A DNA stretch of 64,000 nt, from positions 443,001 to 507,000 of the forward strand of contig NC_007643.1 of NCBI RefSeq assembly GCF_000013085.1, in the 5' to 3' direction. Within the stretch, counting starts at the first letter, position 1; each line of letters starts with the position of its first letter. The position numbers and the translations under genes were made by a program. Origin of the DNA: Rhodospirillum rubrum ATCC 11170 (GTDB lineage: Bacteria > Pseudomonadota > Alphaproteobacteria > Rhodospirillales > Rhodospirillaceae). Below, one piece after another: positions 52,193 to 57,362 of the stretch. The notes below the pieces were generated by a model, which saw only the letters and a list, made by a program, of their open reading frames with translations, did not search any database and was not told where the DNA came from.

Positions 52193-53179
52193 ATGCGGGC
52201 CATTCTCGGTGTTTTCCTGGTCGCGGTTCTGGCGGCGCTGACCGTTTTTGGCGGTTATCTGTATGTGACCGATCGCTTCGTCGCTGCGGGCCCGTTGGCT
52301 GCGGAGCGCGTGGTGGTGGTGGCCCCGGGCAGCGGGGTGGACGGCATCGCCGCCACCCTGGCCCGCGAGGGCGTGATCAATGATCCCCTGATCTTCAAAA
52401 TCGGCGTGCGGCTGGCCGAAACGGCCCGCCAGCTCAAGGCCGGCGAATACCGCTTCACCCCGGGCATGAGCGCCGAGCAGGTGATGGGGCTGCTGGTCTC
52501 CGGGCAGGTGGTGGTTCACCGCTTCACCGTGGCCGAGGGGCTGACCACCCGCGTCGTCCGCGACATCGTCCTCGCCCAGGAAGACCTGGTCGGCGAGATT
52601 TCGCTGGAGCCGGGCGAAGGCGCGCTTCTGCCCGAGACCTATAATTATCTGCGCGGCGATAGCCGCGACGCCGTCGTCAAGCGGATGGGCGCGGCCATGG
52701 GCGAGGCCATCGACAGCCTGTGGGAGCATCGCGCCCCCGGACTGCCGGTGACCACCAAGGCTCAGGCGGTGGTTCTGGCGTCGATCGTCGAGAAGGAAAC
52801 CGCCGTTCCGGCGGAGCGGGCGCGGGTGGCCGGGGTTTTCATCAACCGGCTGCGCATCGGCATGCCGCTGCAATCCGATCCGACGGTGATCTATGGCCTG
52901 TCGGCTGGCACGGGAACCCTAGGCCGCGCCCTGACCCGCAAGGATCTTGAGACCCCCCACGCCTGGAACACCTATGTGATCCCCGGCCTGCCGCCCAGCC
53001 CGATCTGCAATCCGGGCCGCGAGTCCCTGGCCGCCGTGCTCAATCCGGCCGATGGCGGGGATCTTTATTTCGTCGCCGATGGCAGCGGCGGGCATGTCTT
53101 CGCCGCCAGCCTCGATGCGCATAACCGCAATGTCGCGCGCTGGCGCAAGATCCAGCGCGATCAGGCCAAGCGGGAGTGA
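52193..53179 (+). CDS. mltG: Endolytic murein transglycosylase MltG
   Basis: The protein has 328 residues. The N-terminal anchor is ILGVFLVAVLAALTVFGGYL. A LysM-like region then precedes the YceG catalytic domain: VVLASIVEKETAVPAERARV with the catalytic Glu in EKET, then FINRLRIGMPLQSDPTVIYG, and TPHAWNTYVIPGLPPSPICN with NPG. MltG cuts nascent glycan strands at the inner membrane. It follows fabF by 29 bp across a terminator-like hairpin. In related genomes it is usually followed directly by yicC-gmk; here a minus-strand cassette intervenes. Confidence 0.95.
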   Translation: MRAILGVFLVAVLAALTVFGGYLYVTDRFVAAGPLAAERVVVVAPGSGVDGIAATLAREGVINDPLIFKIGVRLAETARQLKAGEYRFTPGMSAEQVMGLLVSGQVVVHRFTVAEGLTTRVVRDIVLAQEDLVGEISLEPGEGALLPETYNYLRGDSRDAVVKRMGAAMGEAIDSLWEHRAPGLPVTTKAQAVVLASIVEKETAVPAERARVAGVFINRLRIGMPLQSDPTVIYGLSAGTGTLGRALTRKDLETPHAWNTYVIPGLPPSPICNPGRESLAAVLNPADGGDLYFVADGSGGHVFAASLDAHNRNVARWRKIQRDQAKRE

Positions 53180-53197
53180 CCCCCCGGCCGCCGGCCT

Positions 53198-53593
53198 CTA
53201 TTCGGCGGTGGGCGGCAGGCGACGGATACGGTTGGCGTCCATGATCACCAGGACGCGGTCGACCTCGCGCACCAGATCCTCGCTGCCAAGATGGATGCGC
53301 CGCCCGCCCAGGCCGAGAAATCCCCCCATTTCCACATCGATGCCGATGATCTGCCCGCTGTCGCCGGGTTCGATTTCGGCGACCCGGCCGATCTTCTCCC
53401 CATCCTGGGCGACAACGGGCAGGCCGATCCAGGCCAGACGGGCGGCGTCGACGGTATGCTGGGTGGTTACCCCGTCCTCGCCGAGCGTCTCGGCGCCGCG
53501 CGGGTGACCATCCGCCCAGGCCGGAAGACCGCCAAGGCCAAGGGCCAGGACGGTGCCAAAAGGAAGAAGAACGCGTCGGACGATCCAACCCAT
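53198..53593 (-). CDS. Exported PRC-barrel-like protein (paralogue 1)
   Basis: The protein has 131 residues. A signal peptide, VRRVLLPFGTVLALGLGGLP then AWA, predicts export. The mature part reads WIGLPVVAQDGEKIGRVAEI, then IIGIDVEMGGFLGLGGRRIH, a PRC-barrel-like pattern, and ends with MDANRIRRLPP. AAGG lies upstream of the ATG. It is the most divergent of five related small exported proteins in this cassette and the only one whose barrel resembles standard photosynthetic-reaction-centre-H-type domains. The function is unknown. It is convergent with mltG. Confidence 0.8.
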   Translation of the reverse strand: MGWIVRRVLLPFGTVLALGLGGLPAWADGHPRGAETLGEDGVTTQHTVDAARLAWIGLPVVAQDGEKIGRVAEIEPGDSGQIIGIDVEMGGFLGLGGRRIHLGSEDLVREVDRVLVIMDANRIRRLPPTAE

Positions 53594-53697
53594 GGGTAAG
53601 GTTCCTTCCAGAAGAGCGGGTGGAAAAAGGGGCGCGGGCGTTCCACCTGCCGCTCTATCTTATTGACTCTCTGACAGAATATCGGCGCAAACGCGCC

Positions 53698-53726
53698 AAA
53701 GGCCCCGCATGATGCCATGCGGGGCC
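53698..53726 (-). terminator. Hairpin terminator after PRC paralogue 2
   Basis: GGCCCCGCATG (53701-53711) and CATGCGGGGCC (53716-53726) are perfectly complementary over 11 bp around ATGC. On the minus strand TTT follows, then a second small hairpin. It lies 22 bp past the stop of the paralogue at 53749. Confidence 0.6.
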
Positions 53727-53748
53727 CAAGAAAGGCGATAGCCGTGAT

Positions 53749-54075
53749 TTATTTGATCGGCACGGCGCCCTTGAGCAATTGCCCCTCGGTCATCGACAGG
53801 GTCACCCCCGCCGTGCCGCGATCGAATTGCTCGTTGGCGACGATGATCTGCTGGCCGGTGTCGGTGTCGACGACGATGTCGGTGACATGGCCGGTCCCAT
53901 CGGCCCGGGCTTCGGAAATCGTGCCGATCTTCTTGCCGGCCTGATCGAAGACCGGCAACGAGGTCCATTCCGCCGTCTTATCCGCCGTCGACGTGCCCGA
54001 TTGACCATAGGAGACAACCGGGGTAGCCAGCAGGGTCGCGGCAAGGGCTGCGGCGCTTAGCGTCTTCGCGATCAT
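53749..54075 (-). CDS. Exported PRC-barrel-like protein (paralogue 2)
   Basis: ATG 54075 (GGAG 8 bp upstream) gives 108 residues. A signal peptide (KTLSAAALAATLLATPVVSY) precedes the mature part: EWTSLPVFDQAGKKIGTISE, then HVTDIVVDTDTGQQIIVANE and QFDRGTAGVTLSM. The WxxxPVFDxxGxxIG pattern is shared with paralogues 3-5. A periplasmic location is expected. An 11-bp hairpin terminator follows. The role is unknown. Confidence 0.8.
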   Translation of the reverse strand: MIAKTLSAAALAATLLATPVVSYGQSGTSTADKTAEWTSLPVFDQAGKKIGTISEARADGTGHVTDIVVDTDTGQQIIVANEQFDRGTAGVTLSMTEGQLLKGAVPIK

Positions 54076-54170
54076 GGGCAAGGCTCCGCGTTATCGAAAG
54101 GATGGCGCGTTAGGGGCGGGGGGATGGCCCTGTGAGCCGCCGCCCCCTTTTGCAGGGGCCGGGGCTCAGC

Positions 54171-54497
54171 TTAGCGGGAGGCCGCCTGCTGGATCACCTC
54201 GGCCTGGATTTCCGGTTCGGTGGCCTTGGTCACCACGATCCCGGTGCCGTTCTCGAAGGAGCCGGCGTCAAGGACGACGGTCTGCCCCCGCTCGGTGGTG
54301 ACGGTGATGTCCCGGGCGAAACCGCCGGGCTTGAGGGTCACGTCGGTGACCTTGCCGACATACCAGCCGTTGTGGTCCCAAACAGCCTTCTGCGTCCATT
54401 CGGTTTTTTGGTCGCTCAGACTCTGTTCGCCAGCAAAGGCGAGGGGAGAGGAGAGGACAAGCGCGGCCGTCGTGGCCAGGATTGTCTTGCGAATCAT
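54171..54497 (-). CDS. Exported PRC-barrel-like protein (paralogue 3)
   Basis: ATG 54497 (AAGGA 7 bp upstream) gives 108 residues, beginning with signal peptide MIRKTILATTAALVLSSPLA then FA. The mature part reads EWTQKAVWDHNGWYVGKVTD, then FARDITVTTERGQTVVLDAG and SFENGTGIVVTKA. PVFD of the relatives is AVWD here. The MIRxTxLAxxxA leader is nearly the same as in paralogues 4 and 5, which points to duplication. It lies 95 bp upstream of paralogue 2 on the same strand. Confidence 0.8.
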   Translation of the reverse strand: MIRKTILATTAALVLSSPLAFAGEQSLSDQKTEWTQKAVWDHNGWYVGKVTDVTLKPGGFARDITVTTERGQTVVLDAGSFENGTGIVVTKATEPEIQAEVIQQAASR

Positions 54498-54671
54498 GGG
54501 GGTATTCCTTTGTTCAGTCTGCGATTTTGTTTGGTGGGCGGCGGCCTTTTCTGCCATCGCTCTCCACAACCAACGTCATGATCCCCAAGAGGTTTCATTA
54601 TTTATTATGAGTGGGCGATTCGGTTCTTGTGTTGAGCGCCGAAGTATCGGGTAACCCTGGGCCATAAGCAT

Positions 54672-54695
54672 AAAAAAACCCCCGTAGAGGGGGGG
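54672..54695 (-). terminator. Intrinsic terminator after the Pro-rich membrane protein gene
   Basis: On the minus strand a C-run (54695-54689) pairs with GGGGG (54683-54679) around TCTAC, followed by TTTTTTT (54678-54672). This is the cleanest rho-independent terminator in the window. It lies 25 bp after the stop of the gene at 54720. Confidence 0.85.
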
Positions 54696-54719
54696 ACCGG
54701 GGCGGGCGGGGAACAGGCG

Positions 54720-55124
54720 TCAGTCCGAGGGCGGATAGGTGTAAAGACGCTGACGCGCCGCCGAGCCGCCGTCGGAGGGGACGACGGCCCGCAGGCGCGG
54801 CGTGGTGGCCGGGCCCAGTTCGCGCGAGGCCGGGGTTTCCAGGGGCGCGGCCGAGGGCCAGGGGCGGGGACCGGTCGGGGTGATCGTCGTGCCGACGGTG
54901 GGGGAAATCGGTGTTCGCACCGTCGTCGGTCCCTCCATCGGCCGTGCCGAATTCCTGTCCTCGGCCAGGGCGGGGCGGATGGCCAAGGTCAAAAAAGTCA
55001 GAAAAGCCCCGAGCAGGGCGGCCACGACAATCGCCCCGATAATCGGCGCGACCAGACGGACCGGGGGAACGGGCTCCGGATCGGGATAGGAATAAGACGA
55101 CGAGGGCATCGCGGAATGGGGCAT
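54720..55124 (-). CDS. Single-pass membrane protein with Pro/Thr-rich periplasmic tail
   Basis: The protein has 134 residues. A short Pro/Ser-rich cytoplasmic N terminus is followed by one hydrophobic segment, LVAPIIGAIVVAALLGAFLT into FLTLAI. A low-complexity Pro/Thr/Arg tail of about 85 residues follows, without known domains. GGGAG precedes ATG 55124 by 8 bp. An excellent terminator follows. I do not recognise the family. It lies between the PRC paralogues and a DUF3096 gene, suggesting an envelope-related set. Confidence 0.7.
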   Translation of the reverse strand: MPHSAMPSSSYSYPDPEPVPPVRLVAPIIGAIVVAALLGAFLTFLTLAIRPALAEDRNSARPMEGPTTVRTPISPTVGTTITPTGPRPWPSAAPLETPASRELGPATTPRLRAVVPSDGGSAARQRLYTYPPSD

Positions 55125-55152
55125 GGGGGGCGCTCCCGAGCGAAGGGGCGGA

Positions 55153-55302
55153 TCAGAAATAGGCGGCCAAGCCGATGATCCCGATCAAGATCAGATAAAT
55201 CGCCACGACGAAGTTCAAAAGCCGGGGCATGACAAGGATCAAGATGCCGGCGAGAAGAGCGATCAAAGGCGAGAGAAGCGCCATGTTCATCGTAAAGGTC
55301 AT
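55153..55302 (-). CDS. DUF3096-type mini membrane protein
   Basis: The protein has 49 residues from ATG 55302, which has a perfect GGAGG 6 bp upstream. Almost the whole protein is hydrophobic: LLSPLIALLAGILILVMPRL, then LNFVVAIYLILIGIIGL. The RLLNFVVAIYLI pattern is that of DUF3096 proteins, tiny two-helix membrane proteins of unknown role. The upstream in-frame extension to 55377 lacks a ribosome site. It is followed by the Pro-rich membrane protein gene after 28 bp, and the two are probably co-transcribed. Confidence 0.8.
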   Translation of the reverse strand: MTFTMNMALLSPLIALLAGILILVMPRLLNFVVAIYLILIGIIGLAAYF

Positions 55303-55477
55303 CGGCGGCCTCCTAAGGGCGGACGGGGGTAATGTCCCTATCAATGCCCGATGCCGCGCTTGGGTTGCCTCGCTCATGGATAAGTTAAGAGAAGGGGGCC
55401 CTCCCGGGACCCGTGTCGGGGCGGGAGGGGCGCCCCGTGGCGGACGCCCCCTCCCGATCCACCCGGCGTAGCGGGCT

Positions 55478-55828
55478 TTAGTTGGCCTGCTGGGCGGCGT
55501 TCACGCCGATGCGATCGCCATTGGCCAGTTGATTGATAACCGAGCGGTCGACGGTGGTGATGACCTTGAAGGTGCCCAGCCTGAAATCGCGGGCGGCCAG
55601 GGTCACATCACGGCCCGAGGGGGTGTCGATGCGGACCGACACCGGGAAGCTGCCGGCATTGACTTCAAGGTGGGCGACGGTGCCGACCAGGGCGCCGTGG
55701 CTATCGAAAACCGGCGCGGACTGCCAGGCGTCGGCGCGGTCGGACGGACCATCGAAGGCCAGGGCCAGCGGCGCGGTGAAGGTCATGGCGACGGCGGTGG
55801 CGGCGGCGAAGAAGGTGTTGCGGATCAT
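55478..55828 (-). CDS. Exported PRC-barrel-like protein (paralogue 4)
   Basis: ATG 55828 is placed 9 bp after GGAG, matching the spacing of paralogue 5; ATG 55837 directly abuts the GGAG. The product has 116 residues: a signal peptide (MIRNTFFAAATAVAMTFTAP), then AWQSAPVFDSHGALVGTVAH and VRIDTPSGRDVTLAARDFRL. DNA and protein are so similar to paralogue 5, 499 bp away, that this is a tandem duplication. The end, RSVINQLANG, is shared. The function is unknown; a periplasmic location is expected. Confidence 0.82.
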   Translation of the reverse strand: MIRNTFFAAATAVAMTFTAPLALAFDGPSDRADAWQSAPVFDSHGALVGTVAHLEVNAGSFPVSVRIDTPSGRDVTLAARDFRLGTFKVITTVDRSVINQLANGDRIGVNAAQQAN

Positions 55829-55976
55829 CGAGGTCATCTCCGATTAAGAATAACATCCAGCGTTCGTGCCCCGGTAAGGGGCGCGGCGGATCGGCAAAAA
55901 CATGCGGGCGCGGTAGGAAGGGGTGGGAAGAGCGCGGGGGGGCGCGCCCTTCCCAAGCAGCCAAGCAGGTCCGGGG

Positions 55977-56318
55977 TTAGTTGGCCTGCCGGGCGGCATT
56001 CACACCAGCCGAACCATTGGCCATCTGTTCGATGACGCTGCGGTCGAGGGTGGTGACGACCTTATAGGTGCCCAGCGAAAAGTCGCTGGCGGCCAGGGTC
56101 ACATCGCGGCCCGAGGGGGTGTCGATGCGAACGGACACCGGGAAGTTCCCCGGGCCCAGGTCGATATTGGCGACGGTGCCGACCAGGGCACCCTGAGCAT
56201 CAAAGACCGGGGCGGCCAGCCAGTCGGCGGCGCGGTCGGCGCGGCTTTCTTCGGCGAAGGCCAGCGGCGCGGCGACGACAAGGGCGGTGGCGGCGGCGAG
56301 AAGGGTGTTGCGGATCAT
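55977..56318 (-). CDS. Exported PRC-barrel-like protein (paralogue 5)
   Basis: The protein has 113 residues from ATG 56318, with GGAG 8 bp upstream. A signal peptide, MIRNTLLAAATALVVAAPLA then FA, precedes DWLAAPVFDAQGALVGTVAN, VRIDTPSGRDVTLAASDFSL and LDRSVIEQMANG. It is the tandem duplicate of the next gene (55478). Upstream lies a promoter flanked by two near-identical palindromes (56471-56540), so this gene is probably the one controlled. The in-frame extension to 56570 passes through that promoter and is rejected. Confidence 0.84.
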   Translation of the reverse strand: MIRNTLLAAATALVVAAPLAFAEESRADRAADWLAAPVFDAQGALVGTVANIDLGPGNFPVSVRIDTPSGRDVTLAASDFSLGTYKVVTTLDRSVIEQMANGSAGVNAARQAN

Positions 56319-56470
56319 GATGGCGTCTCCGATCGAGGATAAAAGGCGACGGCGCCCGAAAAAAACAGCGTGTCGCCGAAAGCGATAGGGCTGCCCCTTA
56401 AGGGGCGGGACCTGAAAAGGCGGGGTCAACCGGGGGGTTAGATCCTCGTCGAGGTTCGTTCTAAAGCGGT

Positions 56471-56540
56471 AAACTGAACCGTACAGTTCATATAATTCTT
56501 CGCCAGCGGCTTTCAAGCGAAAAACTAAACCGTACAGTTT
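56471..56540 (-). promoter_or_regulatory. Promoter flanked by two TetR-type palindromes
   Basis: Two sites share the core AACCGTACAGTT: AAACTGAACCGTACAGTTC (56471-56489) and AAACTAAACCGTACAGTTT (56522-56540). Each has AACT(G/A) and CAGTT half-sites 7 bp apart. Between them, on the minus strand, lie -35 TTGAAA (56516-56511) and -10 TATATG (56494-56489) with 16-bp spacing. The downstream palindrome covers the transcription start and the upstream one lies just behind the -35. Site centres are 51 bp apart. The geometry suggests repression by a TetR-type dimer; no such regulator is encoded in the window. Confidence 0.65.
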
Positions 56541-56591
56541 ATTTTTTTGGGGGGAGGGGAAGGGTGGCACCTTTCGGGGCGGGGCGCCGTG

Positions 56592-57362
56592 TCAGAAACC
56601 GGCGGGTTTGCGCGGGGTTCGCGCCAGCAGGCGGCCGGCCAGGGCCTCGGGCAGGGCGGCGATCATCCAGGCGCCGAAGGCCATCGGCCAGGGGAAGGCG
56701 ATGCGCCCGGCATTGGCTTCCAGCCGGCGGGCGATCAGCCGGGCCGCCTTGTCGGCCTCCATCAGGAAGGGCATGGGGAACTCATTGACCGCCGTCATCG
56801 GCGTGCGCACGAAGCCCGGGCAGATGACGCTGAGCTCGACGCCGTCGTCGGCCAGAACGCCGCGCATCCCTTCCCCCCAGACCTTGACCGCAGCCTTGCT
56901 CGCGCAATAGGCCGGGGCGCCCGGGGTGCCGCGAAAGCTGGCGAGCGAGGCCATCACGGCGATCTGGCCGCGCTTGCGGGCGCGAAAGCGCGGGATAATC
57001 GGCAAGAGGGTGTTGAACAGGCCGTCGACATTGACGGCGAACAGCGCCCGGGTTTGCTCGGCGGCCTCGCCGCCGCCGCCGGTTCCCCCGGAAATTCCCG
57101 CATTGGCGATGACCAGATCCAGGGCTCCGGCCTCGTCGGCGGCGATGACCCAGGCGGCGGTGGCGGCGCGGTCGGTCACATCGACCAGGGCGGTTTCAAC
57201 GATGGCGCCGGCGGCCCGGCAATCTTGGGCGATCGCCGCCAGGGCCTCGGCGCGGCGGGCGCCCAGAACCAGCCGCCGGCCGGGGCGGGCATAGCCGCGC
57301 GCCAGCGCCGCCCCCAGGCCGCTGGAGGCGCCGGTGATCAGGATCGTTCGCGGAGATTTCAT
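56592..57362 (-). CDS. SDR-family oxidoreductase with C-terminal hydrophobic segment
   Basis: The protein has 256 residues. The cofactor loop is ILITGASSGLGAALARGYAR, then VLGARR. NAG lies in LVIANAGISGG, and the catalytic Tyr-Lys are in YCASKAAV. PGFVRTPMT is the typical post-active-site loop. The C terminus (FPWPMAFGAWMIAALPEAL) is hydrophobic, a feature of some lipid-acting SDRs. GGAG precedes the ATG by 9 bp. It opens the minus-strand cassette between mltG and yicC. The substrate is unknown. Confidence 0.88.
   Translation of the reverse strand: MKSPRTILITGASSGLGAALARGYARPGRRLVLGARRAEALAAIAQDCRAAGAIVETALVDVTDRAATAAWVIAADEAGALDLVIANAGISGGTGGGGEAAEQTRALFAVNVDGLFNTLLPIIPRFRARKRGQIAVMASLASFRGTPGAPAYCASKAAVKVWGEGMRGVLADDGVELSVICPGFVRTPMTAVNEFPMPFLMEADKAARLIARRLEANAGRIAFPWPMAFGAWMIAALPEALAGRLLARTPRKPAGF

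Follow-up and report, generated by a model that had tools for sequence, protein, structure and literature searches.

The analysed window was a stretch of 64,000 nucleotides from Rhodospirillum rubrum ATCC 11170 (contig NC_007643.1, positions 443,001 to 507,000 of the forward strand). The host genome comprises 4,406,557 bases in two contigs, one of 4,352,825 bases. Between mltG, which ends at position 53179, and an SDR oxidoreductase gene lie seven minus-strand genes, labelled A to G in order of position: A, B, and C (PRC-like), D, E (DUF3096), and F and G (PRC-like) (Table 1). A preliminary description of this DNA had placed here five small exported PRC-like proteins with a common motif, together with two small membrane proteins, and all of these were found, the five with predicted Sec signal peptides; the membrane proteins are E and D, the latter with one transmembrane segment and a proline-rich tail. 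The same description had counted the SDR as a member of the cassette and had given the block intervening between mltG and yicC as 4.2 kb. Among 29 relatives whose yicC loci were fetched, an antisense SDR gene was located less than 600 bp from yicC in 13 and further off in three more, and the gap between mltG and the SDR gene was 33-55 bp in three relatives; the remaining relatives included cases of mltG adjoining yicC without an SDR gene. Because an antisense SDR is a frequent and old neighbour of yicC in the order, the insert proper was redefined as the mltG-to-SDR stretch of ~3.4 kb (about 53180-56591), with the SDR outside. Recent acquisition of the insert by transfer was considered and is unsupported: GC and GC3 are like those of the surroundings, and no mobile element was seen.

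Table 1. Predicted genes and regulatory features at the mltG-SDR junction. Positions are those of the window.
Feature	Position	Strand	Basis
Gene A, exported 131-aa PRC-barrel protein of the typical GGFLGLG type, signal peptide to AWA-DG	53198..53593	-	Pfam PRC 31.0 bits
Strong GC hairpin with short T-run 3' of gene B, terminator-like; then a second hairpin	53700..53727	-	Fold z = -4.7, 0/200 shuffles as good; terminator-like site adjoining
Gene B, exported PRC-barrel protein, 108 aa	53749..54075	-	Pfam PRC 22.8 bits
Gene C, exported PRC-barrel protein, 108 aa	54171..54497	-	Pfam 18.8 bits, sub-threshold; AlphaFold model
Sigma-EcfG-like promoter GAAAC-N16-CGTT, 99 bp upstream of C	54572..54596	-	Only 4 relaxed matches in the 64-kb window, both strands counted, this being one
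Intrinsic terminator closing the G-F-E-D unit	54677..54698	-	CCCCC stem, then TTTTTTT
Gene D, one-TM protein with Pro-rich tail, 134 aa, orphan	54720..55124	-	No match in Pfam or NCBIfam
Gene E, DUF3096 small membrane protein, 49 aa	55153..55302	-	Pfam PF11295 63.5 bits vs 23.3 cut-off
Gene F, exported PRC-barrel protein, recent duplicate of G	55478..55828	-	Identity to G
Gene G, exported PRC-barrel protein, 113 aa	55977..56318	-	Pfam 14.5 bits, sub-threshold; AlphaFold model
TetR-type operator 2, AACTGTACGGTTCAGTT, directly downstream of the -10 box	56472..56488	-	Exact pattern twice in genome; window expectation 0.01
Sigma70-like promoter of G: TTGAAA 56516-56511, 16 bp, TATATG 56494-56489	56489..56516	-	Read from sequence
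TetR-type operator 1, AACTGTACGGTTTAGTT, upstream of the -35 box	56523..56539	-	Pattern search
SDR oxidoreductase, ancestral yicC neighbour, outside the insert	56592..57362	-	Pfam adh_short 140 bits; antisense SDR near yicC in many relatives

A simple heuristic and inspection gave all five PRC-like proteins an N-terminal Sec signal peptide ahead of the PRC barrel. Against the Pfam PRC-barrel family (PF05239, cut-off 21.2 bits), A and B scored above the cut-off and C and G below it, and the sequence of F itself gave no PRC match. The top PDB matches of the AlphaFold models of C (pLDDT 75.5) and G (pLDDT 73.8) were PRC-barrel proteins, at E values of about 1e-5 to 1e-3, among them reaction-centre H subunits and MTH1859; the C model additionally matched R. 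palustris 3HTR and further PRC proteins of archaea. F shares 84% DNA identity and 69% protein identity with G. Because the C and G models match PRC-barrel structures and F is this close to G, all five genes were assigned to the PRC-barrel proteins, C and G by predicted structure and A, B, and F as judged by sequence. Gene A is the best match in its own genome to the class-wide exported-PRC profile, and B is nearest to a sixth, distant paralogue elsewhere in the genome (L009 at C2:668251; 53% identity). Four of the five array proteins have divergent domains without the GGFLG loop, unlike the PRC general-stress proteins of Alphaproteobacteria. The barrel of the photosynthetic reaction-centre H subunit, among the top structural matches for both models, is cytoplasmic, whereas the array proteins are predicted to be Sec-exported and have neither a transmembrane anchor nor a reaction-centre partner. 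Small PRC barrels comparable to those of the array are the free-standing archaeal proteins (A. fulgidus PRC1/PRC2, CdpB1/CdpB2, and MTH1859) and R. palustris 3HTR. The A. fulgidus pairs were solved as heterodimers, and the archaeal free-standing proteins, unlike the predicted exported proteins of the array, act inside the cell.

Gene E is a clear member of the DUF3096 proteins, which include RPA1050 of Rhodopseudomonas palustris, a gene down-regulated by ppGpp (PMC13343836). Its start is probably the ATG at 55302, which follows AGGAGG, and not 55377, to which the open reading frame extends. An orthologue of E was present in a congener (DUF3096, 56.8 bits); a counterpart of D was not found in the congener locus. 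DUF3096 is widespread and is elsewhere unlinked to PRC genes: by profile, 0/45 DUF3096 loci outside the genus had a nearby PRC match, a test that PRC proteins as divergent as F would slip past, and a conserved DUF3096-PRC pair was rejected on this count. Linkage was seen only in the present genome and one congener. A narrow HMM built from the array's own seed, a weak test taken alone, likewise gave no PRC match in the DUF3096 loci, and PRC matches that had seemed to lie inside such loci were discarded after their positions were placed on other contigs and the translated stretches proved not to be PRC. A gene with the PPDK motif GGKGANLAEM lies 3' of DUF3096 on the same strand in 11 of the 45 loci, mostly from Hyphomicrobiales (L055, L056, L059, L062, L063, L070, L076, L078, L084, L086, and L087, with DUF3096 at ~6001).

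Of 60 relatives, the congener alone gave a match to the A2 profile. Its mltG-SDR junction is occupied by a DUF3096 gene, a GNAT-like gene, and two PRC copies; one copy is intact and exported, and the other (L021:3699-3917) is decayed, with an in-frame TAG stop and no signal peptide. Because of this single match and the two PRC copies, only one of them intact, at the same junction, the array is, as judged by sequence and as far as sampled, genus-specific, with a fixed site at which copies have been gained and lost. Across 385 genomes of the class, profile searches recovered exported PRC-barrel proteins in many families, usually as single genes with one or two barrels; the matches include RimM, which is not an exported PRC protein (L103, L107, and L121), and two unrelated proteins (L117 and L122). 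Literature searches for the PRC-barrel genes of R. rubrum returned no linking paper, and searches with the locus tags returned no match.

The main rival explanation of the array draws on this copy history. It holds that PRC duplicates pile up neutrally, by birth and death, at a permissive junction of two convergent genes, the copies being redundant or decaying and forming no joint system. The recent F-G duplication, the intact and decayed copies at the same site in the congener, and the single, scattered homologues elsewhere are all in keeping with it. The coding-like GC3 of all five PRC genes (77-86%), their intact signal peptides, and the paired palindromes described below, whose exact pattern the rest of the genome lacks, point instead to genes that are maintained and regulated; the neutral array was judged unlikely, if still a serious contender.

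The local terminators of the preliminary description were borne out, with 10 terminator-like sites, every one on the minus strand, where 3.6 were expected. A strong terminator (54698-54677) stands between D and C, and a strong hairpin lies 3' of B; transcription of the array as a single unit is therefore improbable, and G-F-E-D would form a transcription unit of its own. In place of the dedicated promoter described earlier, at least two were recognised: a sigma70-like one upstream of G, set between two TetR-type palindromes, and the EcfG-like box upstream of C. The G promoter was not listed by the consensus scan because its TATATG lacks the final T. Both genomic copies of the exact palindrome pattern flank this promoter, and the looser core ACTGTACNGTNYAGT occurs at three genomic places only, two at the G promoter and one at an efflux locus. 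At the third place, the palindrome ACTGTACCGTACAGT lies between an AefR-like tetR gene and a divergent RND-type membrane-fusion gene (L022; G000:C2:2367000-2374000), and the TetR encoded there carries the AefR-like C-terminal domain PF14246. The G-promoter palindromes match the site at this locus, which is of the kind in which TetR_C_7 (AefR-like) repressors stand beside RND efflux genes; unlike in that setting, the candidate TetR sites here flank the promoter of exported PRC genes. Since operator-like palindromes are common to the two places, G-F-E-D is probably repressed by the AefR-like TetR of the RND locus. TetR operators were not found in the congener, so the TetR input is not conserved. 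A literature search with the operator sequence gave only apparent chance matches.

Sigma-EcfG-type promoters were the second regulatory feature. The box of gene C is one base off the EcfG consensus (GAAAC), and no EcfG-type box was found upstream of A, B, F, or G, even with one mismatch allowed. The sixth paralogue has a perfect GGAAC-N17-GGTT 86 bp upstream, the intact congener PRC gene a perfect GGAAC-N16-CGTT 114 bp upstream, and the decayed congener copy is preceded by a GAAAC-variant box. In Sinorhizobium meliloti, GAAAC-N16-CGTT precedes an RpoE2 target, SMc01509, and the PRC-barrel gene SMb20522 is another target of RpoE2 (PMC6180224). PRC-barrel genes have further been reported as an EcfG target in Sphingomonas melonis (#1478; PMC6599016) and as the third entry in a list of heat-induced genes in Mesorhizobium loti (PMC3989490). 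The genes phyR, nepR, and ecfG lie side by side with a histidine kinase gene in the host genome (NepR was identified by Pfam; PhyR and EcfG were recognised from their position and the look of their sequences).

Outside the genus, a perfect GGAAC-N16/17-[CG]GTT was present less than 200 bp upstream of 38 of 97 non-redundant PRC-barrel genes across Alphaproteobacteria. The controls gave 8 on the antisense strand, 0.2 in mononucleotide shuffles, and 1.6 in the -800 to -400 region; the Fisher P value of 2e-7 is inexact, since the 97 genes are a limited sample that includes related members. Distances between box and gene cluster at 51-130 bp.

These boxes bear on two further alternatives. The array might be an efflux-linked set for detergent or solvent tolerance, with the AefR-like TetR as main regulator, PRC proteins aiding the pump or the outer membrane, and the EcfG-like box of C accidental. 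The three-site TetR motif does join the cassette to the RND locus. The operator is missing from the congener, the distant paralogue and the two congener copies have upstream EcfG-type boxes as well, and PRC-barrel genes across the class are strongly associated with the EcfG box, all of which makes this alternative decidedly improbable. The surface-adhesion role raised in the preliminary description, or one in a secreted matrix, agrees with export by signal peptides. It fits poorly with a single barrel of about 85 residues, with the stress promoters that homologues follow, and with the lack of any visible anchor to the surface, any repeat, or any export signal other than Sec; it found no support and was given hardly any weight.

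The preferred reading, held with a probability of roughly 0.5, is that the array is a lineage-specific expansion, at the Rhodospirillum mltG-SDR junction, of the small Sec-exported PRC-barrel proteins widespread in Alphaproteobacteria, forming an envelope-stress set with two inputs. An envelope-stress role had been proposed before, and the sigma-EcfG-type boxes and the TetR operators common to the efflux locus lend it sequence-based backing; together they suggest that the array is regulated in part by EcfG and in part by an efflux-type TetR. In the proposed mechanism, the PhyR-NepR switch would release sigma-EcfG, which would transcribe gene C and, perhaps by read-through, B. The sigma70 promoter between the two operators would drive G-F-E-D under repression by a TetR, most likely the AefR-like one beside the RND pump, and toxic compounds would derepress this unit. 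The exported PRC barrels may serve as periplasmic docking domains that dock on or cap membrane proteins or assemblies, by analogy with the PRC barrel of the reaction-centre H subunit acting on its own complex, and the DUF3096 protein and D would be their inner-membrane partners. The fold, signal peptides, motifs, copy history, and class-wide promoter association come from the computations, whereas the repressor's identity, the division into transcription units, and the docking in the periplasm are inferred.

The closest known systems are the alphaproteobacterial PRC general-stress proteins S. melonis #1478 and S. meliloti SMb20522, which share the PRC domain and have an EcfG-type promoter close upstream; the S. 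melonis box, GGAAC-N17-GGTT, has the layout of that before the distant paralogue. Those stress genes are usually single and scattered, whereas the five here form a tandem array that includes DUF3096 and has a TetR-type promoter. The suggestion of an undescribed system therefore holds in part: exported single PRC proteins are widespread and PRC genes are known EcfG/RpoE2 targets (PMC6599016 and PMC6180224), and the DUF3096 linkage is limited to the genus (0/45 DUF3096 loci elsewhere). The kind of protein is known; its arrangement at this locus is new and specific to the genus. Its homologues are scattered singly, which had been named as grounds against a system if joined by absence of co-regulation; stress-type promoters predicted in common speak for co-regulation.

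The main interest lies in the class-wide promoter association of PRC-barrel genes. For many effectors of the general stress response in Alphaproteobacteria no function is known; the 38/97 result puts the PRC barrel forward as a recurrent one, and the array offers a place in the host genome where a PRC role is testable by deletion. A broader proposal, tentative and rather doubtful, is that exported and cytosolic single PRC barrels constitute a class-wide, largely unrecognised arm of this response, of which Rhodospirillum would have made a two-input envelope module that also responds to an efflux-pump TetR and has DUF3096 and D as membrane partners.

Two minor observations were made on the promoters. 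Upstream of nepR and phyR (L128:2509-3050), nepR has a one-mismatch EcfG-like box, GCAAC-N16-CGTT, and phyR is preceded by one-mismatch GGAAC boxes; autoregulation of nepR and phyR is possible on this pattern. Among the upstream regions of PRC genes outside the genus (L138-L227), the share with a perfect box was higher for non-exported (16/24) than for exported proteins (22/73).
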